DNA from: Spongiibacteraceae bacterium
GTDB taxonomy: Bacteria > Pseudomonadota > Gammaproteobacteria > Pseudomonadales > Dasaniaceae
Direction of reading: 5' to 3'
NCBI GenBank assembly: GCA_028280715.1
Contig: JANQLG010000046.1
Span: 1 to 59,907 of the forward strand
DNA length: 59,907 bases
Positions 41,198 to 55,721 of the stretch are shown one piece after another. Within the stretch, counting starts at the first letter, position 1. Every line of letters starts with the position of its first letter. Position numbers and translations under genes: made by a program. A model generated the notes under the pieces. The model was not told the DNA's origin, ran no database searches, and was given only the letters and a program-made list of their open reading frames with translations.

Positions 41198-41212
41198 TGG
41201 CACAGACATTGC
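41198..41212 (+). promoter_or_regulatory. Sigma-54 (RpoN) promoter of the guanidine island
   Basis: TGGCAC (41198-41203), five bases, then TTGC (41209-41212): all consensus positions of the -24/-12 promoter with correct spacing. The predicted transcription start is about 41223. Sigma-54 promoters typically control nitrogen-scavenging genes. A possible NtrC half-site, GCACCA, is at 41063-41068, but I see no full enhancer pair. Confidence 0.75.
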
Positions 41213-41217
41213 GTTAA

Positions 41218-41245
41218 GTATTACGATTTTTCGATTTCGTAATAC
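41218..41245 (+). promoter_or_regulatory. NikR-type operator over the transcription start
   Basis: GTATTACGA (41218-41226) and TCGTAATAC (41237-41245) are perfect inverted copies separated by 10 bases, 28 bp in total. The E. coli NikR operator at the nik operon has the form GTATGACGA-N10-TCGTCATAC, the same layout with one symmetrical base change. It overlaps the sigma-54 start, fitting repression by the NikR-like protein encoded at 48342 in the same island. Confidence 0.8.
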
Positions 41246-41289
41246 CAATAACACTCTTTGAGACGATCACTATTGAATGAGGGCATGGC

Positions 41290-42264
41290 ATGAAAACTCG
41301 TATATCCCGCTTCATTGCAGCCGCAATGATGACCCTGATGATGGGTACTGCAGCATTAGCTGAACCACTAAAAATAGGTTACTCCGATTGGCCAGGATGG
41401 GTCGCTTGGGAAATAGCCATTGAAAAAGGCATGTTTGAAGAAGAAGGCGTAGAAGTTGAATTTGAATGGTTCGATTACGTCGCCAGTATGGATGCATTTG
41501 CTGCCGGCCAGTTAGATGCCGTTACCATGACCAATGGTGACGCCCTGGTTACCGGTGCTACAGGCGCACAAAGCGTAATGATTCTGATAAACGACTACAG
41601 CAATGGTAACGATATGGTCGTTGCAAAACCCGGAATTAATTCTGTTGCTGACCTCAAGGGCAAAAAAGTCGGTGTTGAAATTGGTTTCGTCGGCCACTTG
41701 CTTCTGTTGAATGCACTTGAAAAAGAAGGCCTGACAGAACAAGACGTAGAACTGGTTAATGTCCCCACCAACGAAACACCTCAAGTTCTGGCATCGGGAG
41801 ATGTTGATGCCATCGTTGCATGGCAACCCAATTCGGGCCAGGCACTTAATCTTGTTCCAGGATCAAAAGCGATATACACCAGTGCTGATGAGCCGGGCTT
41901 AATTTATGACGTCTTGGCTGTATCACCATCCAGCCTTGCTGCGAATAAAGCCGAGTGGAAAAAAGTTCTAACTGTTTGGTATAAAGCGGTCGCTTTTTTG
42001 AAAGATCCTGCAACCAGCGAAGAAGCCATTTCTATTATGGCAGCCCGTGTTGGATTGGAGCCTGAGGATTACAAAGGCTTTATTGATGGAACCAAAATCT
42101 TAACGCTGGAAGAAGCAAAAGTATTTTTGAAAAAAACAGAGGGCTTTAAATCTCTCTATGGTTCTTCAAAAATTTCTGATGATTTTAATGTTGCCAACGA
42201 AGTTTACACCGAACCACAAGACATCGACGCGTATATCGATCCTAGTCTGATGCTTGAGCTATAA
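41290..42264 (+). CDS. ABC transporter substrate-binding protein (NitT/TauT type), guanidine/urea uptake candidate
   Basis: A 324-residue periplasmic binding protein of the nitrate/taurine-type family. It has a signal peptide (about residues 1-24, ending AALA), then [36 protein letters not shown] (in pieces), typical of proteins annotated as urea carboxylase-associated or putative urea ABC binding proteins. The gene is first in the island, after a sigma-54 promoter and NikR-type operator. A perfect palindrome follows its stop, which would raise its level over the permease genes. Guanidine or a related guanidino compound is the likely ligand by context. Confidence 0.88.
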
Positions 42265-42271
42265 ACCCCCG

Positions 42272-42295
42272 GGCTGGGTAAATATTTACCCAGCC
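42272..42295 (+). terminator. Perfect palindrome between binding-protein and permease genes
   Basis: GGCTGGGTAAAT and its inverse ATTTACCCAGCC (42272-42295) form a 12-bp perfect palindrome, followed by TTAATCTTTTC. In ABC operons such an element after the binding-protein gene acts as an attenuator or mRNA stabiliser. Confidence 0.7.
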
Positions 42296-42318
42296 TTAAT
42301 CTTTTCAAGGCTTTTCGA

Positions 42319-43275
42319 ATGCAGATATTTGCAGTAAGAAAAAATCTCCGACCTCAGCAGCGAACAGCAATGACATTTGTAAGCTTCCTGCTGCCAATAA
42401 CTCTTTGGTGTCTGGTAAGTTATCTGCCTTTTCTATGGCACCCAATGATTGAAATAGAAAAAAAGGGCAGCGTTTCTTACTTTAAACCAGGAATGCTAGT
42501 AGAGCGGGAAGTATTCAGTCAAGAATTCGACAATGCATTAGCTAACAATCTAACACTACCTGCGGGCACACGATCCAACCCTATATATCTACCCGCACCT
42601 CACGAAGTAGCAGCTGCTTTATACACTTCATTTACCACTGAACCAAAAAGAAGAAGTGAAAAATGGTTACATGAAAGCCTATGGGACAGCATTCAAGTTA
42701 TTTTCTGGGGCTTTGTATTATCTTCGATAGTGGGAGTTCCGCTGGGAATTCTAGCTGGAACTTATGATTTTTTCTCTCGCTTATTTGAACCATTTATTGA
42801 GTTCTTTCGTTATTTACCTGCACCTGCATTTGGAGCACTAGCCGTTGCAATACTTGGAATTTATCACGCACCTAAAATCGCGATTATCTTTATAGGTACT
42901 TTTTTTCAACAGGTTTTAGTTATCGCAAATACAACGCGCAAGCTAGACCCAGCACTATTAGAAGCAGCGCAAACTCTGGGCGCAAAAGACAGATCATTAT
43001 TATTCAAAGTAGTAGTACCCGGCATCTTTCCCGATCTGTATCGAGACATGCGTATTTTATTAGGATGGGCTTGGACCTATTTAATTGTTTCAGAGCTCGT
43101 AGGCACCAGCTCAGGCATTACCTGGTTTATCACACAACAGGCTCGCTATAAGAATTTCGACAACGTTTTCGCTGCCATCATTATTATCGGCGTTATCGGA
43201 CTGGCTACTGACATAATACTTTCCCTGATAGGAAAACGCCTCTTCCCCTGGCAACGCGCAGAATCAACGGTATAA
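42319..43275 (+). CDS. ABC transporter permease (NitT/TauT type)
   Basis: A 318-residue inner-membrane permease of the SsuC/TauC-like BPD_transp_1 family. After a first helix (about 25-45) comes a long periplasmic section (45-110) with [15 protein letters not shown], then the core helices; the EAA loop is visible as [27 protein letters not shown]. It forms the channel with the ATPase encoded 4 bases downstream and receives substrate from the binding protein encoded upstream. Confidence 0.93.
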
Positions 43276-43279
43276 CACC

Positions 43280-44209
43280 ATGAATCATGATCCATCAATT
43301 ATACAAAGCGCTGCAGACTATCTAGAACAATCAGATAAAGTAAAAGACCGTTTTGAGCGTTTAAAGCAGCGCCCCGTCACACTTGAAGTTAAGAATCTTT
43401 ACAAAGTATTTGAAACACCAAAAGGCAACATCACTGCACTCAAAGATATAAATTTTAAAGCCTACCGACGCGAATTTGTCTGCGTAATCGGCCCTTCCGG
43501 CTGTGGCAAATCAACCCTGGTAAGAATTCTTGCAGGTCTGGATTCTGCCACTAGTGGTTCTATGTTATTAAATGGCGAAGAAGTCAGCGGCCCATGTCCC
43601 GATCGCGGCATGGTTTTTCAGGGTTACACTCTTTTTCCCTGGCTAAGCGTAAAGCGTAATGTCATGTTCGGTTTACTTGAGTCTGGACACAGTCGTAGTA
43701 ACGCAGAAGAACAGGCAATGCAATGGATCGAACTGGTAGGTTTATCCAAATTCGCCGATAGCTACCCACATCAATTATCAGGTGGCATGAAGCAACGTGT
43801 AGCCATTGCCAGAGCATTAGCCAATCAACCAAAAATTCTATTTATGGATGAACCCTTTGGTGCATTAGATCCTCAAACTCGAACTAAGATGCAATCTCAC
43901 CTAATGGAAATTTGGCGCAATATAAACATTACTATTGTGTTTATTACCCACGACTTAGATGAAGCCATCTATTTAGCCGATCGTATTTTAGTACTCAAGG
44001 CCCACCCAGGTGAAGTAGAGGAAGTTATTGAGGTACCCGTATCTCAACCACGCGACCCATCTCAATTTTTATCTAAAGAATTTTTGGCGACAAAACGCAG
44101 ACTGGAAGAGCTCATTCATCCTGCTGAAGAAGCTGAAGATACAAACTCAGACAAATTAAATATGGTACGTATGGTTCATGTCGATGATGACGTGCCCAGC
44201 GTATTGTAA
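43280..44209 (+). CDS. ABC transporter ATPase (NitT/TauT type)
   Basis: A 309-residue ATPase. Walker A is GPSGCGKST (71-79), the Q-loop is in [13 protein letters not shown], the signature is LSGGMKQR, Walker B is [12 protein letters not shown] and the switch His is in [11 protein letters not shown]. There is an N-terminal extension of about 32 residues before the domain. It starts 4 bases after the permease stop, so the two are translationally coupled. It powers the presumed guanidine importer of this island. Confidence 0.94.
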
Positions 44210-44236
44210 GAAAACTTTACTAATACGGTAGCAATC

Positions 44237-45007
44237 ATGAACGATTGGCACTATTTAACATGGCAAGAAATCCAGCAAAAGGTGGAATCAGGATTAACTT
44301 CTGCATTACTACCTGTTGGTGCCACAGAACAACACGGGCCACATTTGGGTTGCGGCGTTGATACCAGTATTGCTGAAAAAACTTGCCATGCAGTAGCTTC
44401 AAATACCGAAACTGTCTTATTACCTACGCTACCGTACGGTTGCTCAATCGGCCATTCGAAACGTTGGCCAGGAACACTAGCTTTACAACCTAAAACACTG
44501 ATTGACGTTGTTACAGAAATCGGTGATTGGGTTTACTCAGCTGGCATTAGAAAGATTTTTATTATTAATAGTCATGTAACAAACTTTGCACCGCTTCGCT
44601 GTGCATTGGAGATGTTACGCGCAAAATATGACGACATCATGATTGCATTAATAAACACACCAGAAATTAGTCCACGTGTCAGGAAATCCCATTTCTCTGA
44701 CGCAGAAGATTGGCATGCTAACGATGCCGAAACTTCATTAATGTTAGCGATCGATTTCAACATGGTAAGACCGGATAAATGCAGTTCCTCCGATGACGAA
44801 GACCGTACAACAAACAAAGTATTCGCCCACCCTGTTAATCGAACAAGTAGCAATGGCGTTACAGGAAGCCCTAGTCTGGCGACAAAGGCAAAAGGAGATT
44901 CCCTATTTGAAAATATGGTAGAGGATCTAACTCAACTTATTAATAGCGGGATTGAAGAGACCCCTCCATTAACAGCATCTTATTTTGAATCAGTTTTGGA
45001 GCCATAA
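44237..45007 (+). CDS. Creatininase family metal-dependent amidohydrolase
   Basis: A 256-residue creatininase-fold protein. Metal ligands of the family are visible: Glu31 and His33 in [11 protein letters not shown], Asp42 in GVDTS, and His160 and Glu165 in [15 protein letters not shown] (111-116) replaces the usual NGHGGN. Creatininases open the ring of creatinine, and other members hydrolyse related amides. Placed between a transporter ATPase and a glutamine-synthetase-like gene in a guanidine island, it may act on a cyclic or acylated guanidino compound. True creatininase activity is not shown by the sequence. Confidence 0.88.
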
Positions 45008-45012
45008 CTGAA

Positions 45013-46374
45013 ATGAAATCTCACGAAGAAATACAAATCATACAAGCTGAACTGGCAGAAAAAGGCGTTAAATATTGCATGGGAGCCTATGTCGATATCC
45101 ACGGCGTCCCAAAAGGAAAAGTCGTACCACTTTCCCATCTGCAACATATGGCTGAAGGCTCTGAATTATATACAGGATATGCATTAGACGGATTAGGTCA
45201 AGCACCCAATGATGACGAAATCGCTTCCGTTCCAGATTTAGATCATATTATTCAATTACCCTGGCAACCAGAAGTCGCCTGGATGCCTGCAGATAATAGT
45301 TTTAAAGGTAAACCCTATTCTCTTAATACCCGCGTAGCGCTAAAACAACAAATCGAAAAAGCCAATGAAATGGGTTTTGGTTTCAATCTCGGAATAGAAG
45401 CTGAATTATTTGTGCTTAAAAAAAATGAAGATGGCAGCCTTTCGATTCCTAATGAAGACGACAAGCTCACCAAACCCTGTTATGACATTCGAGGTTTTCT
45501 CCACCAATTCGAATGGCTAGATAAAATGGCCACTGCTATTGACGATCTGGGATGGGACCTATACTCATTTGACCACGAAGATGCAAATGGTCAGTATGAA
45601 TTTGACTTTATGTACGCTGACGCCGTTACCACCTGCGATCGATTTACCTTTATCCGCTTAATGGCTAAAGAATTTGCCCGGCAGGAAAATCTATTAGCCA
45701 CTTTCATGCCTAAACCATTTGCTGACAAAACAGGTAACGGTGCGCATTTCAACATGTCACTTTGTGATCTCAGCACAGGAGAAAACTTATTTAAATGTTC
45801 TCCAGATGAAGACCCCAATGGCTTAGGCATCACGCCACTAGGCTACAATTTTATTGGTGGAATTATTAAACATGGGCGCGCACTATGCGCAGCTTTCGCT
45901 CCAACAGTTAACAGTTATAAACGGTTGGTAAGACAAGGAGATATGCCTTATTTTACCTGGGCCCCAGTTTTTAACTCCTTTGGCTCTAATAACCGAACCA
46001 ACTCAATTCGAGTACCGATGAACGGCGGGCGTTGCGAATCACGTAACGCAGATGGTGCAGTAAATCCTTATCTTGCTGCCACCTTAGCGTTGGCAGCTGG
46101 ACTTGAGGGTATCCGCGAAGAGATTGATCCTGGCAAGCCACAGGAGGATAATCTTTATGAACTTACAGAACAGCAACGGGCTGATCGTGGCATAGAGTTT
46201 TTACCTAAAAATCTGGATGAGGCTGTAGCGGCTTTTGCAGCAGACCCTCTTATCGAACAAACACTTGGAGAGGAATTAAAGCAAGAATTTATTAAGTATA
46301 AACAGCAAGAATGGAATAGCTATCACCAGTCAATTTCAGCCTGGGAAATCGAACGCTATTCCCATTTATTTTAA
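45013..46374 (+). CDS. Glutamine synthetase family ligase (type III/GlnT-like)
   Basis: A 453-residue glutamine-synthetase family protein. It has the GS beta-grasp N-terminus ([21 protein letters not shown]), the catalytic-domain [40 protein letters not shown] and the [32 protein letters not shown] run (in parts). It resembles GlnT/type III enzymes and gamma-glutamylamine ligases more than housekeeping GlnA, which has an adenylylation loop not seen here. The gene starts 5 bases after the creatininase stop. It may glutamylate ammonia or an amine set free by the pathway. Confidence 0.88.
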
Positions 46375-46408
46375 TCAAATGTTAAGCAGTAATAATTTTG
46401 TATAACCC

Positions 46409-46466
46409 CCAATGGGACGACCCGTTGGTTGCTCATCAGAGTGTATATTTAAGCAGGACGACCTGC
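46409..46466 (+). promoter_or_regulatory. Guanidine-II (mini-ykkC) riboswitch 1
   Basis: Two hairpins with the diagnostic ACGA tetraloop. Hairpin 1: CCAATGGG-ACGA-CCCGTTGG (46409-46428, one U-G pair). Hairpin 2: GCAGG-ACGA-CCTGC (46453-46466). A 24-base linker separates them. The ribosome site CGGA (46467-46470) follows hairpin 2 directly, 8 bases before the ATG at 46479. The layout fits translational control by guanidine binding to the ACGR loops. It lies in the 104-base gap after the glutamine-synthetase-like gene. Confidence 0.93.
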
Positions 46467-46478
46467 CGGAATATCGAC

Positions 46479-47453
46479 ATGAAATTTTATCGGTACAGTG
46501 ACGGCAAGTTACCTAACTCGGTACTTTTCATTTATCTAACTTTGGGAACAGGGTTTGCTCTAACCGGCTTACAACACAACGCCATTATCTATGTACTATC
46601 TGTGTTATTACTAGCACATTGTATGATTATCTCGGCGTACCTCATCCATGAATGTATTCACAATACCATTTTTTCAAACAACAAATGGCACACTACTCTC
46701 GCTAGCACATTAGCCTGGCTGTTAGGGTTTGGCTATTTACCGTATACCATTTTAAAGGACAAGCATCTTCGCCATCATGTTGAGAACACTGATGTACAAC
46801 TATTAAATTACCGTGATTATCTCGAGCAATATCCCTTGCTGAAAAATCTAGTAGTATCGCTTGAATTTATTCACTTTCCAGCAGTTGAGGTATTGACGCA
46901 CGCACTGGCAATTCTATCTCCATTTATCGTGGAGAGTCGTAAAAAATACAGGCAACGCGTTATCCTGGTATTTATATCAAGATGTTTTTTTATGGCCTTT
47001 TTAGTCTCTATTGGCTGGCAAGTGCTTATTGGCTGGTGGGTTGCCATTTTTTTGTGTATGACCCTATTGGGATTTATGGACGCATTCCAGCATAGCTATG
47101 ACATTCATTTCACACTCGACAAACCAAAACAAAAAGCAACAACAACAAATAGAAGCTATGAAGACAGCAACACTTATTCCAATTTGCTAAGCCGGCACTT
47201 TGATTGGTTAAACTTGTTAGTACTTAACTTCTGTTACCACAATGCACATCATTTAAAATCAGGAGAACCCTGGCATCGTTTACCAGCCCTTCATAAAAAA
47301 CACTATGGAGAAAATAGCGACCAACTAGTACCTCTTACCGTACAAATAAAAAACTTTCATACCAATAGAATCCTACGAGTGCAACGGCTCCAAGAGCATG
47401 CAAATTCCAAAGATATTGGTGCCGTCGGCGTCTCATTTTTAGCAGGAATCTAA
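46479..47453 (+). CDS. Membrane di-iron fatty acid desaturase/hydroxylase family protein
   Basis: A 324-residue protein. It starts at the ATG 46479 because the longer frame from 46398 would be read through the riboswitch. Three histidine boxes of the di-iron desaturase family are present: HECIH (57-61), HLRHH (96-100) and HNAHH (254-258), with four or so membrane helices between. Members desaturate acyl chains or hydroxylate small molecules. Because a guanidine-II riboswitch controls it, a lipid role is unlikely; hydroxylation of an N-alkylated guanidine is my inference. A TIM-barrel gene follows after 4 bases. Confidence 0.88.
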   Translation: MKFYRYSDGKLPNSVLFIYLTLGTGFALTGLQHNAIIYVLSVLLLAHCMIISAYLIHECIHNTIFSNNKWHTTLASTLAWLLGFGYLPYTILKDKHLRHHVENTDVQLLNYRDYLEQYPLLKNLVVSLEFIHFPAVEVLTHALAILSPFIVESRKKYRQRVILVFISRCFFMAFLVSIGWQVLIGWWVAIFLCMTLLGFMDAFQHSYDIHFTLDKPKQKATTTNRSYEDSNTYSNLLSRHFDWLNLLVLNFCYHNAHHLKSGEPWHRLPALHKKHYGENSDQLVPLTVQIKNFHTNRILRVQRLQEHANSKDIGAVGVSFLAGI

Positions 47454-47457
47454 CCAG

Positions 47458-48318
47458 ATGAAATTACAATGCTATAAATCAATGTGGGGACTGTCTGGCG
47501 ATTTGGATCACATTGTAAAAACAGCAAAAGAACAAGGCTATGAGGGGATTGAAGGGCCAATTCCTGAGACTGTTTCTCAACGGCAATATTTATCTCAGCT
47601 ATTAAAAGATTATGATCTATTTTATATCGCTGAAATTGCCACCACAGAAACTTATGTTCCGGATCGCAGTATTTCCTTAAAGGGACATATTGAATACTTA
47701 AAAGAAAAATTAGACCACCTAACTCCACTTAACCCTCAATTTATTACCTGTTTGGGAGGGTGTGATGCCTGGTCTACCATGCAGTCTGTTGATTTTTTCT
47801 CGCACGCCATTGGATTGGCGGATGATCATGACTTAATCATTAGCTTCGAAACGCATCGCGGTAGAAGTTTATTTAATCCATGGAAAACATTATCCATCGT
47901 CAACCATATTCCAAGCATAAAACTTACCTTTGACCTAAGCCATTGGGACGTAGTCTGCGAAGGATTGCAGACTACTGAAGAAGAAATTATTCAAAAATTA
48001 GCCAGCAACACGCATCATATTCATGGACGCGTAGGCTATGATCAAGGTCCGCAAGTCTCTGATCCCAGAATAGGCATATATCAACAAGAACTTGAACGCT
48101 ATGCCACATGGTGGCAATGGCTATGGCATGCACAACGTCAGCAAGATTATAAAGTAGTAACAATGACACCAGAATTTGGAGTGGACGGCTATCAATACCG
48201 CAGCTGCGACGGCAATAAAACATTAGTCGATCTCGACGAGATTAACCTGTACATGGCCAATTATTGTCGACAACTTGAGACCTTCAAACTATCCAAGCAA
48301 AGCAAATATGCAATATAA
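47458..48318 (+). CDS. Xylose-isomerase-like TIM-barrel protein
   Basis: A 286-residue AP-endonuclease-2/xylose-isomerase-like TIM-barrel protein (sugar phosphate isomerase/epimerase family). Probable metal ligands are Glu131 (IISFETHRGR), Asp159 and His162 (FDLSHW), a His in HIHGRV and the Glu of MTPEFG. Family members isomerise or epimerise hydroxy-carbonyl compounds, often with a divalent metal. The start (4 bases after the desaturase stop) shows close coupling. Acting after the di-iron enzyme, it could process the aldehyde or carbonyl product; this is a hypothesis. Confidence 0.82.
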   Translation: MKLQCYKSMWGLSGDLDHIVKTAKEQGYEGIEGPIPETVSQRQYLSQLLKDYDLFYIAEIATTETYVPDRSISLKGHIEYLKEKLDHLTPLNPQFITCLGGCDAWSTMQSVDFFSHAIGLADDHDLIISFETHRGRSLFNPWKTLSIVNHIPSIKLTFDLSHWDVVCEGLQTTEEEIIQKLASNTHHIHGRVGYDQGPQVSDPRIGIYQQELERYATWWQWLWHAQRQQDYKVVTMTPEFGVDGYQYRSCDGNKTLVDLDEINLYMANYCRQLETFKLSKQSKYAI

Positions 48319-48341
48319 ATTAATAGGAAATGTAAAAAATT

Positions 48342-48794
48342 ATGGACAGTAATAAAGACAAGTTAACACGAATTAGTGTGTCACTACCTGAAACACTACT
48401 CAGTCAATTTGATCATATGGTTTCTGAAAGAGAATATGAGAGTCGTTCACAAGCAATTTCTGATCTGCTAAATCAAAAACTCAATGAGCACCGTGAAGAA
48501 ATCGGTGAAGAAGTTATGGCAGGTACAATTAATATTGTCTTTGATCACTCTGTTCCTAATTTACAAAAGAAGCTAGCGGATATTCAGCATAACTATATTG
48601 ACGAGGTCATCTCGAGCTTGAATGTAGGTTTGGAAAACGCGAAAACCATGTCTGTTTTTTTAGTACAAGGACCAGGAAAACGACTAAACATGATCGCTAA
48701 TGAAATGATATCGAACCGCGGTGTAATTACAGGCAAGTTACTTTTATCTACCGCCATCATTCCTCAGGTACACCCATTACCTATAAAAAAATAA
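48342..48794 (+). CDS. NikR-like transcription regulator lacking the nickel site
   Basis: A 150-residue regulator with a ribbon-helix-helix N-terminal domain (TRISVSLPETLLSQFDHMVSER) and an ACT-like NikR C-terminal domain (from about 60; GTINIVFDHS). Aligned by eye to E. coli NikR, the first nickel ligand is kept (His83 for His76) but the other three are lost (Asn94, Gly96 and Thr102 for His87, His89 and Cys95). It therefore probably does not bind nickel in the usual way. A 28-bp operator with NikR half-sites and spacing at 41218-41245 is its likely target. AGGAAAT lies before the ATG. Confidence 0.87.
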   Translation: MDSNKDKLTRISVSLPETLLSQFDHMVSEREYESRSQAISDLLNQKLNEHREEIGEEVMAGTINIVFDHSVPNLQKKLADIQHNYIDEVISSLNVGLENAKTMSVFLVQGPGKRLNMIANEMISNRGVITGKLLLSTAIIPQVHPLPIKK

Positions 48795-48808
48795 CTGGAA
48801 TACATACT

Positions 48809-49522
48809 ATGAAAATTGATCAGTACTCTACAAGAATTAAAGGAGCCGGCCATTGGTCCCTAGTAGTTCGAAGAGGCATACAGATGAAGATTACCGACCC
48901 TCGTGGTGGCGCTAATGTCGGTATGCTTTTTTATAACCCCACATTACTGACTGAACAGTACAATGCTCCTGACACTTTAAAATGCCAACACACCTTTAAG
49001 CTTACTAAAGGAAATTGTTTGTACTCTGATATGGGGCGTATATTCTGCTCAATTATCGATGATACTTTTGGCTGGCATGAGTCCGTTTGCGGCAACAGCC
49101 ATGCCTCGCATATCCAAGAGCGTTGGGGAAACCGCGACTACCAGCAAGATGGTAATGCCTGGATGCAAAATGGCTTTGATAGTTTTTTGGTTGAATTGGC
49201 CAAATACAATTTAACCGCACGTGACATGCCAGCCAATGTTAATTGGTTCAGCAAAGTTTCAGCAAAAGAAAATGGTGATCTTACCTTAAGCGACCGTTCG
49301 CAAGCAGGTGACTCAATAACGTTACGTTTTGAAATGGATACATTAGTGATCCTGCATACCTGCCCACACCCATTAAATAATGATGAAGCCTATCCATTAA
49401 CACCAGTAGAGATTGAATTATCTCCCGCTGAGCCAGTTACAGATGATGACTACTGCATGAATTTTCGGCCAGAGAATCAGCGAGGCTTTAAAAACAATGC
49501 TCTCTATCACTTAGGTCTATAA
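48809..49522 (+). CDS. DUF1989 protein, urea carboxylase-associated protein 1 (carboxyguanidine deiminase subunit)
   Basis: A 237-residue DUF1989 protein, of the type called urea carboxylase-associated protein 1. It has the family strand [23 protein letters not shown], the CGNSHASH segment with Cys and His residues likely to bind metal, and [16 protein letters not shown]. In guanidine catabolism the DUF1989 pair forms carboxyguanidine deiminase (CgdAB), which turns carboxyguanidine into allophanate. I am unsure which letter belongs to which subunit. It is 14 bases after the NikR-like gene and 16 before its partner. Confidence 0.88.
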
Positions 49523-49538
49523 CTGGAGTTCCCTTATC

Positions 49539-50177
49539 ATGATACAAGAAAGCGCTTTACAAAAAAGCACCGCATCTTTTAGTCAACAAATAGGCGCAGG
49601 TGACTACTTTATTAAAATCATCAACAAAGGCCAGACCATGAGAATCCTGGACCTGGAAGGCAATCAGGCAGCTGATACACTTTTTTACAACGCTGACAAT
49701 CCCGCTGAACGCTACAGCGCCATGGACACTATTCGTGAACAGAGTAATTTATACCTAACCACCGGTTCCATCCTAAAAACCAACGAGAACAATGATCTGC
49801 TAGAAATCGTTGCCGATACCTGTGGAAGACACGACACTGTTGGCGGTGCCTGCGCCACAGAATCGAATACCGTGCGCTACGATTTAGAAAAACGCTGTAT
49901 GCATGCATGCCGCGATAGCTGGATGTTAGCCATTCAAGAACACCCGGAATTTGGACTACAAAAGCAGGACATTACTCATAATGTTAATTTTTTTATGAAT
50001 GTACCAGTCACAGAAGAAGGTGGGCTCACCTTTGAAGACGGCATTTCTGCTCCGGGTAAATATGTTGAATTTAAAGCGCTGATGAACGTCATTGTACTGA
50101 TATCCAATTGCCCTCAACTTAACAACCCCTGCAACGGCTACAACCCAACCCCCGTTGAAATATTAATCTGGAATTAG
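49539..50177 (+). CDS. DUF1989 protein, urea carboxylase-associated protein 2 (carboxyguanidine deiminase subunit)
   Basis: A 212-residue DUF1989 protein, paralogous to the one at 48809 (shared [21 protein letters not shown]-type strand, [14 protein letters not shown]). Metal-binding candidates are in [17 protein letters not shown] and in NCPQLNNPC. With its neighbour it is expected to form the carboxyguanidine deiminase that bridges guanidine carboxylase and allophanate hydrolase. TGGAG lies 11 bases before the ATG. A second guanidine-II riboswitch begins 28 bases after the stop. Confidence 0.88.
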
Positions 50178-50204
50178 CCATAGTTTTTATTAAATGAACC
50201 ATTC

Positions 50205-50248
50205 ACAGGACGACCTGTTAATACTCAACCACATTGGGACGACCCAAT
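50205..50248 (+). promoter_or_regulatory. Guanidine-II (mini-ykkC) riboswitch 2
   Basis: Hairpin 1: ACAGG-ACGA-CCTGT (50205-50218). Hairpin 2: ATTGGG-ACGA-CCCAAT (50233-50248). They have the same ACGA loops as riboswitch 1, with a 14-base linker. The ribosome site CGGA (50256-50259) and the GTG start at 50267 follow at once. An apparent upstream TTG start at 50234 lies inside hairpin 2 and is spurious. Confidence 0.93.
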
Positions 50249-50266
50249 TTTATTTCGGACATCAAC

Positions 50267-53200
50267 GTGTTTAATAAAGTACTTATTGCCAACAGAGGCG
50301 CTATCGCAGTCAGAATTATTCGAACATTGAAAGCGCTGAACTGCTTATCCGTTTGTATTTATGCTGAAGCTGATCGCGACTCATTACATGTTTCATTGGC
50401 TGATGAGGCCATTAGTCTTGGCGAAGGCAACGCCAGCAATACCTATCTCAATCAAGACAAAATTTTTGCCATCGCCAAACAGACGGGAGCTGAAGCGATT
50501 CATCCCGGCTATGGTTTTTTAAGTGAAAATGCAGACTTTGCCTCCCGTTGTGAACAGGAAGGACTGATTTTTCTTGGTCCAAAACCCGAGCATATGCTGG
50601 CCTTTGGCTTAAAACATTCGGCTCGAGAGCTAGCCGAAAAAAGCCAGGTTCCTCTATTACCAGGAACCGAACTATTACAAGATCTAGATCAGGCAATCGA
50701 AGCTGCCGAGCATATAGGTTACCCGGTGATGCTAAAAGCCACCGCTGGCGGTGGTGGTATCGGCATGAATCGCTGTGATAATCAAGAACAAGTGGTAGCC
50801 GCCTTCGATTCAGTTAAGCGCTTGAGTGAAAATAATTTTTCTAATAGCGGCGTATTTATTGAAAAATTCATTGCCTCGGCGAGACATATTGAGGTGCAGG
50901 TATTTGGCGATGGTCAGGGTGGAGCTATTGCACTCGCTGAACGTGACTGTTCAAGTCAGCGCCGCAATCAGAAAGTCATCGAGGAAACTCCTGCGCCTAA
51001 TCTACCAGCAACTGTACGCAAACAACTAAACCAGGTAGCAAAACAATTAGCCAGCCAGTCACATTACCGTAGCGCTGGCACCATTGAATTTATCTACGAC
51101 AATACCAGCGAAAAATTCTATTTTCTTGAAGTGAATACCCGCCTGCAGGTTGAGCATGGTGTCACTGAAGAAATCTATGGCATAGATATCGTTGAGTGGA
51201 TGTTAAAACTAGGCGCAGGTGAACTTGAGCCTCTTTCGAGTCTGGAACAGGAGTTATCACCTAAAGGTCACAGTATACAAGTACGCCTGTATGCAGAGGA
51301 TGCCAATAAAAACTTCCAGCCCTCATCCGGCCTTCTTACAGAAGTTATTTTTCCTGACCAAACCAATCAACTGCGTATTGACCACTGGTTAATTAACGGC
51401 TTGGAGATTTCGCCGTTTTTTGACCCCATGTTGGCTAAAGTCATCTGCACCGCTGACTCACGACAACAAGCACTACAGCTATTATCTGATACGCTTTCAG
51501 ACACTTCACTTTATGGTATTGAAACAAATCTGGATTATGTACAAGAGGTATTGAAACTAACAGAATTTATTGACGGCGAAATCACCACTCGCTTCCTCAA
51601 TGAATTTTTTTATCAGCCGCAGACTGTAGAAATTCTCAGCTCAGGCACACAAACCACGATACAGGATTATCCCGGCCGTAGCGGTTACTGGCATGTTGGT
51701 ATCCCGCCCAGCGGTCCCTTTGATAGTTTTTCTTTTCGTCTTGGCAATCAGTTACTGAACAACCCTGAACAAGCAGCCGGTATTGAAATTACACTACAGG
51801 GACCGTTACTGCACTTTAATAGCAATACACAATTTGCACTGACCGGCGCACAAACAGATGCGAAAATTATTCATCTAGATGGCACGGAAACAGCGGTATC
51901 CTTTTGGCAAACCCATAGTATTAAAGCAGGCGAACGACTTCATACAGGAAAAGTGCTAGACCATGGTTGTCGCGCTTATTTATTAATTGCAGGCGGGATT
52001 CAATGCCCGGATTATCTTGAGTCAAAATCTACTTTTACTCTCGGTCAATTCGGTGGTCACGGCGGCAGAGCCTTACGTACTGGTGATGTGTTACATATCC
52101 CGTCATGCGACAACAATATTGCCAATAGCTTAGCTCAGCTGCTGCAACCTACGATTGACGGCCAATGGCAATTGCGCGTTATTTATGGGCCACATGGCGC
52201 ACCTGACTTTTTCACTGACGAAGATATTGCCACATTCTTTTCCCACGATTGGGAAGTGCATTACAACTCAAGCAGAACCGGTATACGCCTAATTGGCCCC
52301 AAACCTCAATGGGCACGCAGTGATGGCGGTGAAGCCGGCATGCACCCCAGTAATATTCACGACAACGCCTACGCCTTTGGCACAGTAGATTTTACCGGTG
52401 ACATGCCGGTGATCCTGGGGCCAGATGGCCCCTCTCTAGGTGGATTTGTTTGCCCCGCTACCGTCATCACTGCCGACTTATGGAAACTCGGTCAACTGAA
52501 AGCTGGCGATAAAATTCGTTTCGTTCCAGTAGACATTGACGATGCAAACAAACTAGAGCAGCAGCAATTAATTCGCATTCAACACTACCAAGACGACAAC
52601 GATGACTATCAAACCACAGCAATAAATGTTGCTAAGCAAAGCTGTATTCTAAAAACAATCCCGGCCAAGAAAACTGCATCGACCCTGTTACCCGAAGTCG
52701 TCTATAGAGCACAGGGTGATCACTTTTTATTGGTAGAGTATGGCGATCTGCAACTGGATATCACTTTGCGTTTTAGAGTACACGCGTTGATGTTATGGCT
52801 GCAGCGAAATCCATTGCCAGGCATGCAAGAATTAACACCCGGCGTTCGCTCCTTACAGATTCACTATGATAGTCAGCAACTTCCCCTGAAAATTTTGCTG
52901 GATCATCTAGCCAAAGCTGAAGATCAACTCGATCAGGATGAAAACCCTGAAGTGCCGGCTCGTATCGTGCATATTCCATTATCCTGGGATGACGAAGCCT
53001 GCCGTGAGGCAATAGCCAAATACATCCAGTCGGTTCGCAAAGATGCTCCCTGGTGCCCCAGTAATATTGAATTCATTCGCCGTATCAATGGTCTTGATTC
53101 CATTGAGCAGGTGAAAGAGATTGTATTTAACGCCAGCTACTTGGTTCTTGGTCTAGGCGATGTTTATCTGGGTGCTCCTGTCGCTACTCCCATTGACCCA

Positions 53201-53896
53201 AGACATCGTCTAGTTACCACCAAGTACAATCCGGCTAGAACCTGGACCGCAGAAAACTCAGTAGGTATAGGCGGTAGTTATTTATGCGTCTATGGCATGG
53301 AAGGCCCAGGCGGTTATCAGTTTGTTGGCCGCACACTACAAATGTGGAACCGCTTCCATAAAACAGCAGAATTTGAGCAGCCCTGGCTATTACGTTTCTT
53401 TGACCAGATTCGTTTTTATGAAGTCACTGCAGAAGAACTGGTACAAATACGTCGCGACTTCCCCAAGGGCGACTACCTGCTAAAAATAGAAGAGACCACT
53501 TTCAACCTATTGGAGTATGAGCAGTTTATCAAGGATAACGCCAGCGACATTAACGCCTTCACTTCACATAGAGAGCAAGCATTTAATGACGAACTCGAAC
53601 GCTGGATTGCGGATGGCAGCATCAACTTTCAAAGTTCAGAAAGCGCAGATCAACCCTTAGAGGAGTTACAAATACCGGACAATGCCACAGCCATTGAAAG
53701 TCATGTCGCAGGTAGTATATGGCAAGTACTCGTTGAAGAAGGACAGGAAGTGGAAGCCAACCAGACACTACTCGTTCTGGAATCGATGAAAATGGAAATT
53801 GAAATCACCTCCCCACAAGCAGGCACTGTTAGCACAATCACCAAACAACCGGGCGATCAAATTAATGCCGGGCAAGTATTAATGATTCTAAAGTAA
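50267..53896 (+). CDS. uca: Guanidine/urea carboxylase (biotin-dependent)
   Basis: A 1209-residue biotin-dependent carboxylase. The start is GTG at 50267, giving [21 protein letters not shown]. Order: biotin carboxylase (1-450; [40 protein letters not shown]), the KipA-like AHS2 domain (about 455-740; [24 protein letters not shown]), the KipI-like AHS1 domain (about 790-1000) and a C-terminal biotinyl domain with the ESMKMEIE motif (Lys1175). It is annotated in most genomes as urea carboxylase; the guanidine-II riboswitch and the adjacent DUF1989 pair argue that guanidine is the true substrate. It feeds carboxyguanidine to CgdAB. Confidence 0.94.
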   Translation: [1209 protein letters not shown]

Positions 53897-53912
53897 ATTT
53901 TCGGACACAATT

Positions 53913-55721
53913 ATGCAGATTGAAAACCTAACAATTAACTATTTGCGCGAGCAATATGAAGCTAAAAAATTTACTCCACTGGAACTGATGCAGCATTTGA
54001 TCCACAAAGCCGATCAGTTTGCAGAAAAAAATATTTGGATACACCGTTTAAGATTAGAGGACGTTGAAACCAGTATTAATCAATTAGACCGGGAGAATTT
54101 TTCTGACCAACCTCTATGGGGAATCCCCTTCGTTGTTAAAGATAATTTTGACGTTGCCGGCTTACCCACCACTGCAGCCTGCGAGGCCTTTACTTACACT
54201 GCTGACAGCAACGCTTATGTTGTACAAAAGCTGCTTGATGCAGGTGCCATTTTACTTGGCAAAGCCAATATGGATCAGTTTGCTACTGGACTAGTCGGCG
54301 TGCGCTCACCTGAAAAATGGGGCGCCTGTAAAAATTCCTTTAACAGCGATTATGTTTCAGGAGGCTCAAGCAGCGGCTCCGCTGTTGCCGTTGCCTTAGG
54401 CTTAGCCAGTTTTTCACTGGGTACAGATACCGCCGGTTCCGGGCGTGTACCTGCGGCTTTAAATAATATTATCGGTTTAAAACCCTCCAAAGGCTTATTG
54501 AGTTTTAGTGGTGTCGTACCAGCCTGTAGAACTTTAGATTGCGTCAGTATTTTTAGCACCACAACAGATGACGCCAACACGGTATTTGAAACTGCTTGCG
54601 GTTTTGATCAACAAGATCCTTATGGCAGAAAAAACATTGATACCAATCGGAAAAATTATGGTCGCTATCAAGGCGATTTTAGTTTTGCTGTGCCGGCACA
54701 GCAACAACTGAATTTTTTCGGCGACCAATCCGCACAAAAACAATTTGCAACCGCGGTAGAATCCTTAGAAGCACTCGGCGGCAAAAAGATTATTTGCGAC
54801 TTTGAGCCTTTATTTGCTGCAGCCAAACTACTCTATTCCGGCCCCTGGGTTGCAGAACGGTATGTAGCCGCTGAAGATATTTATCTTAACCACCCTGATT
54901 CATTATTACCGGTTATTAAAGAAATTCTTAGCTCGCAACTTGATGCTAGCGCAGCGGACACTTTCAAAGCTATTTATCAATTACAAGCTTACAAACAGCT
55001 AGCCGATCAACTGTTCGATATCGTCGATATCTTAGTAACACCAACAGCAGGTACTATCTACACACAGGCAGAGCTAGCCGAACAACCCATCGCTTTAAAT
55101 TCTAATCTGGGTTATTACACCAACTATTTAAATTTGTTGGATTACAGCGCCATAGCCATGCCGGCTGGTTTTTTAGATAACAAGTTGCCCTTTGGCATTT
55201 CTTTTATTGGCAAGTGCTTTGACGATACCAAACTACTTTCGCTAGCCAACCGTTGGCAACAATATCAACCCGCAAAAATAGGGGCAACCGATTGGTCTGT
55301 ACCTGCGCAATCTGGTTCAGTTACCGGCGTTCTCAATACCATTGATGTCGCTGTCTGTGGCGCACATCTGGAAGGTCTACCGCTAAACTGGCAGCTACTA
55401 GAACGCGAAGGTAAATTATTACGCAAAGATAAAACAGCCGACAACTATCGCTTTTATGCTCTGGCAGGTGGCCCACCATATCGACCAGGATTAATTCGCG
55501 ATGAACAACAGGGGGCTAGCATTGATGTTGAAGTGTGGCGACTACCGACTGCATTTTTTGGTAGTTTTGTGGCGGGTATTCCTAAACCCCTGGGGATAGG
55601 AAAAGTCGAACTAGCTGATGGCAACTGGATCACTAGTTTCATCTGCGAAACATATGGCATAGAAGGTGCGGAGGATATAACCAAGCACGGTAGCTGGCGT
55701 AATTACATCAGCTCGCTGTAA
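53913..55721 (+). CDS. atzF: Allophanate hydrolase
   Basis: A 602-residue allophanate hydrolase that splits allophanate to ammonia and CO2. The amidase domain has Lys76 (PFVVKDNFD), the cis-Ser in GGSSSGSAV (150-158) and the nucleophilic Ser176 in TDTAGSGRVP. The C-terminal domain (from about 460) with AGGPPYRPGLIRDEQ and FVAGIPKPLGIGKVELADG is the AtzF-type C-terminal domain. It starts 17 bases after the carboxylase stop, with the same TTTCGGACA sequence before its start as before the carboxylase. It ends the island. Confidence 0.94.
   Translation: MQIENLTINYLREQYEAKKFTPLELMQHLIHKADQFAEKNIWIHRLRLEDVETSINQLDRENFSDQPLWGIPFVVKDNFDVAGLPTTAACEAFTYTADSNAYVVQKLLDAGAILLGKANMDQFATGLVGVRSPEKWGACKNSFNSDYVSGGSSSGSAVAVALGLASFSLGTDTAGSGRVPAALNNIIGLKPSKGLLSFSGVVPACRTLDCVSIFSTTTDDANTVFETACGFDQQDPYGRKNIDTNRKNYGRYQGDFSFAVPAQQQLNFFGDQSAQKQFATAVESLEALGGKKIICDFEPLFAAAKLLYSGPWVAERYVAAEDIYLNHPDSLLPVIKEILSSQLDASAADTFKAIYQLQAYKQLADQLFDIVDILVTPTAGTIYTQAELAEQPIALNSNLGYYTNYLNLLDYSAIAMPAGFLDNKLPFGISFIGKCFDDTKLLSLANRWQQYQPAKIGATDWSVPAQSGSVTGVLNTIDVAVCGAHLEGLPLNWQLLEREGKLLRKDKTADNYRFYALAGGPPYRPGLIRDEQQGASIDVEVWRLPTAFFGSFVAGIPKPLGIGKVELADGNWITSFICETYGIEGAEDITKHGSWRNYISSL

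Follow-up and report, generated by a model that had tools for sequence, protein, structure and literature searches.

The closest described relatives of the locus analysed here are guanidine operons of two kinds. In Vreelandella boliviensis, methylguanidine is demethylated by the 2-oxoglutarate dioxygenase MgdH together with MgdL, a protein modelled as a beta-barrel that splits N-(hydroxymethyl)guanidine and requires D49 and R51, and the guanidine-II riboswitch of this species binds guanidine and methylguanidine alike (PMC12508155). Our locus is an island of 12 genes, all on the plus strand with short gaps, at 41290-55721 of a 59,907-nucleotide stretch of a Spongiibacteraceae genome (contig JANQLG010000046.1; the whole stretch is called the window). 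It shares with the V. boliviensis gca/mgdH/mgdL operon an ATP-binding cassette (ABC) importer, CgdA/B, the carboxylase and allophanate hydrolase, as well as a guanidine-II riboswitch before the carboxylase and an added oxygenase with a partner (PMC12508155). The oxygenase is a 2-oxoglutarate dioxygenase in V. boliviensis, but in the island it is a membrane di-iron desaturase relative, here called DES; likewise, the partner is MgdL in V. boliviensis, but in the island it is a TIM barrel, here called TIM (PMC12508155). Unlike that operon, the island has an extra guanidine-II site before DES, creatininase-like, ligase and NikR genes, and no guanidine-I riboswitch that we could find (PMC12508155). 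The guanidine carboxylase operons of Raoultella, Erwinia and Klebsiella share the importer, the core enzymes and riboswitch control, but the front-end genes are not named in the accessible part of that report (PMC12186494).

DES and TIM together are a guanidine module. We think it somewhat probable that the island is an operon for nitrogen assimilation through guanidine carboxylase to which an oxidative front end has been added, and in which DES and TIM are unrelated stand-ins for MgdH and MgdL. A first-pass annotation of the window had called the gene combination undescribed, and within the literature searched, which left most subscription papers outside, this stands, although the V. boliviensis operon is a close published analogue (PMC12508155). 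In that literature we found neither guanidine carboxylase together with glutamine synthetase nor 'guanidine-II riboswitch' with 'fatty acid desaturase'; where guanidine carboxylase papers named a desaturase, in the parts that could be searched, it was the arginine enzyme NapI. The paper pairing guanidine carboxylase with creatininase (PMC12625717), as far as its accessible text goes, reports genomes from which guanidine genes are absent and an archaeal creatininase near biuret hydrolase.

DES, TIM and their exchange with MgdH-like and MgdL-type proteins

We assembled 88 DES loci, comprising 80 that a DES alignment retrieved from contigs (the best retained among 567 relatives), seven further loci (L025-L031) and the window; L024 was left out as a copy of L035, and L032 (short), L033 and L012-L023 (weaker) were not used. 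A class sample of 274 genomes was also searched, in which DES occurred at E 0.001 or better in 20; our counts use the 10 with E under 1e-20, one of which is the genome of the window.

We read DES as an analogue of MgdH, and TIM as an analogue of MgdL, chiefly because all four hydroxylase/lyase pairings (DES or MgdH-like with TIM or MgdL-type) exist. TIM occupies the place held by an MgdL-type protein at other loci: TIM is found in 47 of the 88 DES loci and an MgdL-type protein in 10, while none has both (0/88, for the fetched stretches, and genome-wide for the MgdL type within the class sample). MgdH-like genes adjoin MgdL-type genes in L131, L175 and L176 and adjoin TIM in L154, and in genome G145 TIM stands directly before an MgdH-like gene. 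None of 24 genomes searched held both DES and an MgdH-like gene. The genome of the window itself gave no match to an MgdH-type dioxygenase at 1e-20 (query, the MgdH-like protein from G171) and none to an MgdL-type protein at 1e-10 (family alignment).

Similarly, in the class sample, TIM is present in 6 genomes and the MgdL type in 5; all 11 carry the carboxylase and none carries both lyases. Ten of the 22 carboxylase genomes have a hydroxylase (8 DES, 2 MgdH-like, none both), each with exactly one lyase, compared to a lyase in only one (G084) of the 12 carboxylase genomes without a hydroxylase (Fisher p 3e-5). On the DES tree, the TIM/MgdL-type label switches at least 3 times among labelled rows: L026 (MgdL type) falls within a supported 29-row group that includes 22 TIM loci, and L065/L079 (TIM) are nested in a supported 18-row group that includes 9 MgdL-type loci. 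The exact sisters of L026 and of L065/L079 are weakly supported.

The MgdL-type proteins belong to family c18, which appears repeatedly at DES loci and has a D-x-R motif that is invariant in nine aligned members (positions 41/43 of the first row). We treated c18 as the MgdL family because of this motif and its position after MgdH-like dioxygenases. Indeed, the c18 gene of G171 comes immediately after an MgdH-like dioxygenase, next to the carboxylase, and in two genomes from the family of a Halomonadaceae metagenome-assembled genome a more distant member (~84 bits) again follows a dioxygenase. The c18 members tested from L083 and L131 had no Pfam match, and that of L026 scored 26.9 bits with HRI1, a beta-barrel protein, just below the cutoff of 27. 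A 228-codon open frame without a Pfam match follows the MgdL-type gene at L175:10960-11643 and L176:11171-11854. The stretch L154:4119-12705 encodes an importer as well as an arginase-family enzyme, TIM and an MgdH-like dioxygenase, and a creatininase (272 bits, cutoff 235) lies upstream of it; this cluster is perhaps another guanidino-compound operon.

The link of DES to guanidine is seen in both riboswitches and enzymes. A guanidine-II site precedes DES in 18 of the 88 loci, and carboxyguanidine deiminase (CGD) genes lie within the fetched stretch of 22; we counted CGD genes rather than the 26 loci with either label because 'GC' at L062 and L031 probably marks other biotin carboxylases. The carboxylase occurs in 22 of the 274 class-sample genomes, but these include 8 of the 10 DES genomes compared to 14 of the 264 others (p 2e-8). 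The DES loci with no carboxylase adjoining (nine), or one at the edge only (L058), raised the idea that the module is unrelated to guanidine, which we rejected since 8 of these 10 genomes carry a close carboxylase (53% identity or more, one match partial). A carboxylase was likewise present in every one of 29 DES genomes drawn from two other types of locus, one match being partial.

DES has the His boxes and the helical membrane architecture of the fatty-acid-desaturase superfamily. The boxes (HxxxH, HxxHH, HxxHH; H57/H61, H96/H99/H100 and H254/H257/H258) are invariant in 42 aligned sequences, and the model of 324 residues is helical with a predicted local distance difference test (pLDDT) score of 92. 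Foldseek gave weak matches to a chloroplast motor complex chain and weaker ones still to AlkB. The family spans Marinobacter, Alcanivorax, sulfur oxidisers and ammonia oxidisers, and its context argues against a lipid substrate. The TIM model (pLDDT 89) matches sugar epimerases and AP endonuclease-like proteins and, lower down, beta-eliminase and DgpB-C; residues E131, D159, H162, H187, H189 and E239 are invariant and, judged from sequence, may suit a metal site. PDB sequence searches with the DES and TIM profiles gave nothing useful.

Island layout and riboswitches

The features of the island are as follows.

41290-42264, + strand: ABC importer substrate-binding protein (NMT1/SsuA-like; PF13379 7.3e-21; TIGR01728 162.7 bits, cutoff 163.5)
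42319-43275, + strand: ABC importer permease (PF00528 1.5e-23)
43280-44209, + strand: ABC importer ATPase (PF00005 3e-33)
44237-45007, + strand: CRE-A, creatininase-family metallo-amidohydrolase (PF02633 4.5e-68; TIGR04448 129.5 bits, cutoff 235)
45013-46374, + strand: gamma-glutamylmethylamide-synthetase-type ligase (9qur match 402 bits)
46409-46466, + strand: guanidine-II riboswitch before DES (25.4 bits, below gathering 32)
46479-47453, + strand: DES, fatty-acid-desaturase superfamily, a membrane di-iron enzyme and putative hydroxylase of methylguanidine (N-alkylguanidine) (PF00487 4e-31)
47458-48318, + strand: TIM, xylose-isomerase-like TIM barrel (PF01261 1.7e-7)
48342-48794, + strand: NikR-family regulator (NF003381 127.5 bits, cutoff 105)
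48809-49522, + strand: carboxyguanidine deiminase subunit A (DUF1989; PF09347 1.2e-55)
49539-50177, + strand: carboxyguanidine deiminase subunit B (DUF1989; PF09347 2.3e-62)
50202-50246, + strand: guanidine-II riboswitch before the carboxylase (33 bits, gathering 32)
50267-53896, + strand: guanidine carboxylase, urea-carboxylase family (TIGR02712 1832.7 bits; adjoins both deiminase subunits)
53913-55721, + strand: allophanate hydrolase (TIGR02713 760.9 bits, cutoff 511)

The core and additional genes named in the first-pass annotation are thus all present, in one orientation with short gaps, and the profile matches agree. The end it gave to the island, 55721, is retained, while the start moves from 41198 to 41290, where the first open reading frame begins. 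The carboxylase, both DUF1989 subunits and allophanate hydrolase make up the gene set of a guanidine carboxylase operon, and the island core is the established guanidine carboxylase pathway; that the carboxylase acts on guanidine rather than urea is predicted from gene context. The importer substrate-binding protein has copies of 66-79% identity at several other guanidine-gene or DES loci and of ~30% at others. A search elsewhere for the same ordered gene set, which the first-pass annotation had suggested as a check, recovered importer, CRE, ligase, DES, TIM, two CGD genes and carboxylase in this order in L034, L035 and L036. The remaining DES loci have rearranged subsets of the island families, and some have DES without any of them. 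In L035 (G119), the carboxylase from 13488 matches the query over ~residues 452-1122 only; its biotin carboxylase portion and carrier end are seemingly missing or located elsewhere.

Of the two guanidine-II riboswitches claimed initially, the one at 50202-50246 reaches the Rfam gathering threshold, which puts the core operon under guanidine riboswitch control, while the site at 46409-46466 falls below it (E 0.0015 in 171 bases searched) and has a long linker, with both GGACGACC hairpins intact. The GGACGACC motif occurs 5 times in the window compared to 0.57 expected, a count reached in 0 of 100 shuffles, and four of the five copies are the hairpins of these two sites. Guanidine-II sites at the equivalent position before DES in other loci do reach gathering; when the guanidine-II family was run against the whole source genome, the 50202-50246 site alone was reported. 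Because the mechanical gene starts fall before or inside the riboswitches, an ATG at 46479 is the more likely start of DES and a GTG at 50267 that of the carboxylase, the latter picked so that the gene begins past the riboswitch.

A hairpin scan of the 88 DES loci found 35 guanidine-II-like sites, compared to 0 in one shuffled copy of each stretch. Apart from those upstream of DES, 13 precede carboxylase or CGD genes and 4 lie elsewhere and are taken for chance. Outside the window, guanidine-II lies 9-31 nucleotides from the point where the DES model match begins in 15 of 17 measured cases (82 and 93 nucleotides in the other two), and 12 of 13 DES-upstream sites tested pass Rfam gathering, L040 being the miss. 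In L026, guanidine-I takes the place of guanidine-II upstream of DES. We looked for a guanidine-I riboswitch before the first gene of the island and found none, whereas L034, L035 and L036, with the same gene order, each have guanidine-I before the importer and guanidine-II before DES.

The creatininase-like protein, the ligase and the NikR homologue

The 'GS-family ligase' of the first-pass annotation is, by its sequence, of the methylamine-ligase type: its best solved relative is a glutamate--methylamine ligase (9qur, 402 bits), compared to ~243 at best for true glutamine synthetases. It has 41% identity to RhGmaS over the aligned stretch and keeps the GmaS catalytic residues D177, E186 and R312, plus W300, K30, Y147 and E179 (residues from PMC7948447). 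It differs from RhGmaS at amine-pocket positions, where Q175 is S and N188 is D, as well as at A48, which is T; moreover, there are no N-methylglutamate genes in the island (PMC7948447). A classical glutamine synthetase for ammonia assimilation was rejected, since the ligase, like GmaS, is without Asp50 and without the Glu of the Glu-flap.

CRE-A has 'NSHVTN' in place of the creatininase motif 'NGHYEN' and, with this ligand motif missing and a TIGR04448 score under the cutoff, a true creatininase was rejected. In the class sample, CRE-A is found at E 1e-30 in 8 of the 274 genomes; each of the 8 also carries the carboxylase, and three of them (G026, G084 and G145) lack DES. CRE-A goes with lyase-bearing genomes (7/8 versus 4/14, p 0.02). 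Creatininase-like and ligase genes also occur in the guanidine operons L127, L132 and L134, and a NikR-like gene in L127, L134 and L136, all from genomes in which no DES was found; on this ground we treat the creatininase-like/ligase genes and the NikR gene as separate modules, and the initial idea that all the extra genes form one route is not supported in that form. CRE-A and the ligase form a second, optional module.

The NikR homologue passes the NF003381 cutoff, in agreement with its first naming, and falls under the cutoffs of the other four NikR models listed. However, the window protein has LNVGLENA where the HxH...C nickel site is expected, which we take to be the nickel ligand positions of NikR; HxH is kept in 2 of 7 aligned rows. 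With the usual ligands missing, nickel-responsive regulation in the window is unlikely.

A distinct creatininase subfamily is found in DES loci of the Pseudomonas/Paraburkholderia type, and the one member tested, from L083, does pass the cutoff (375.6 bits, cutoff 235); for this reason, these loci may connect creatinine to guanidine. Seven loci (L083, L108, L109, L030, L054, L067 and L099) combine DES with most of the following: dehydrogenases, the cutoff-passing creatininase subfamily, a biuret-hydrolase relative, a metallo-beta-lactamase-fold protein, the MgdL type and importer genes. This cluster is a possible creatinine-to-guanidine route. Over all 88 loci, a metallo-beta-lactamase-fold protein is near DES in 35 (closest to 4-pyridoxolactonase and N-acyl homoserine lactone lactonases, under their cutoffs) and an EamA transporter in 30.

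Proposed route, alternatives and meaning

In the route that we propose, the ABC importer would take up guanidine and methylguanidine, and the riboswitch before DES would open on either. DES, as a membrane di-iron oxygenase, would hydroxylate the N-methyl group of methylguanidine, and TIM would act as an N-(hydroxymethyl)guanidine lyase, as partner exchange suggests, so that the two together would yield guanidine and formaldehyde. Guanidine would then enter the established pathway, in which carboxylase, carboxyguanidine deiminase and allophanate hydrolase convert it into ammonia and CO2. We infer both the DES and TIM activities and their substrate, beside the gene content, riboswitch placement, co-occurrence, partner exchange, family and fold that were observed directly. 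The first-pass proposal that the extra genes strip a larger guanidino compound to guanidine therefore survives in part: the island probably makes guanidine from something else, given that DES and TIM are riboswitch-linked and exchange partners with the MgdH/MgdL type, and methylguanidine would be a likelier substrate than a larger compound.

Several observations weigh against this proposal. Two of the 10 class-sample DES genomes (G263 and G167) have DES without the carboxylase, and G084 carries an MgdL-type gene but neither hydroxylase. The TIM of G145 is the lowest-scoring match and lies on a different contig from the carboxylase. The window's DES sits on a long branch, with 34-44% identity to its aligned homologues, and the island lacks electron donors for DES. 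Clade structure accounts for part of the partner exclusivity, and the proposed kinship of c18 and MgdL is drawn from D-x-R and neighbours. Finally, we searched genome-wide for a lyase in the 31 DES loci with none in the fetched stretch and found TIM elsewhere in 2 and the MgdL type in 6; the other 23 of the 88 DES genomes, of which 16 are from ammonia oxidisers, gave neither lyase, and this speaks against a universal rule. The carboxylase is present in all 14 tested of these 16, which may depend on slow spontaneous decay or on another lyase, or may use DES in a different role. In the 16 ammonia-oxidiser loci (L072, L077, L084, L086, L088, L089, L091-L094, L096, L098, L101, L104, L106 and L112), DES has no other island families close by. 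All 16 have beside DES, on the opposite strand, a gene of ~140 amino acids from one family, without a Pfam match (L104) and regulator-like by eye.

A possible but unlikely alternative is that DES hydroxylates the carbon beside the guanidino nitrogen of another guanidino compound (a creatine/creatinine derivative or a guanidino acid), with TIM or the MgdL type splitting the hemiaminal to give guanidine or methylguanidine. The creatininase subfamily, dehydrogenases and biuret hydrolase relative at Pseudomonas/Paraburkholderia-type loci fit this, as do the arginase-family enzyme beside TIM and the dioxygenase in G145, and the creatininase homologue and methylamine-ligase type in the window itself; however, published MgdL splits N-(hydroxymethyl)guanidine and not hydroxylated dimethylguanidine (PMC12508155), and the creatininase homologue of the window is under the TIGR04448 cutoff. 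We give less weight still to the idea that the creatininase-like protein and ligase are the real substrate entry, an imported acylguanidine or glutamyl-amide being processed by them, with DES and TIM acting on a product. This pair does come directly after the importer in the window, L034-L036, L042, L063, L074, L127, L132, L134 and L135, stands with the importer behind guanidine-I in L034-L036, and in L175 follows MgdH-like and MgdL-type genes, but the two are found together in only 14 of the 88 DES loci and also occur without DES. It is very improbable that DES is a conventional lipid desaturase whose induction shields membranes against guanidinium, and that TIM is unrelated: the Pfam family name and the weak structural matches, which include the alkane hydroxylase AlkB, are set against the presence of DES directly behind a guanidine-II riboswitch in 18 loci and its accompaniment by TIM or the MgdL type, one or the other.

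We return, then, to the guanidine-carboxylase operon with an oxidative front end. Its wider form, for which we consider the case evenly balanced, is that undescribed and widespread membrane di-iron oxygenases make guanidine from N-methylated guanidines under riboswitch control, with TIM as the hemiaminal lyase, and that both steps have been swapped for unrelated proteins, giving four combinations in nature. This would provide a testable function for a common gene that resembles a lipid desaturase by Pfam family, and for an uncharacterised TIM barrel, and would be a case of rare hemiaminal chemistry in which both steps are reinvented in unrelated folds. The analysis also raises the possibility of a route from creatinine to guanidine in Pseudomonas and Paraburkholderia, and it suggests that methylated guanidines are more widely used as a nitrogen source than in one published halophile, perhaps including use by ammonia oxidisers.

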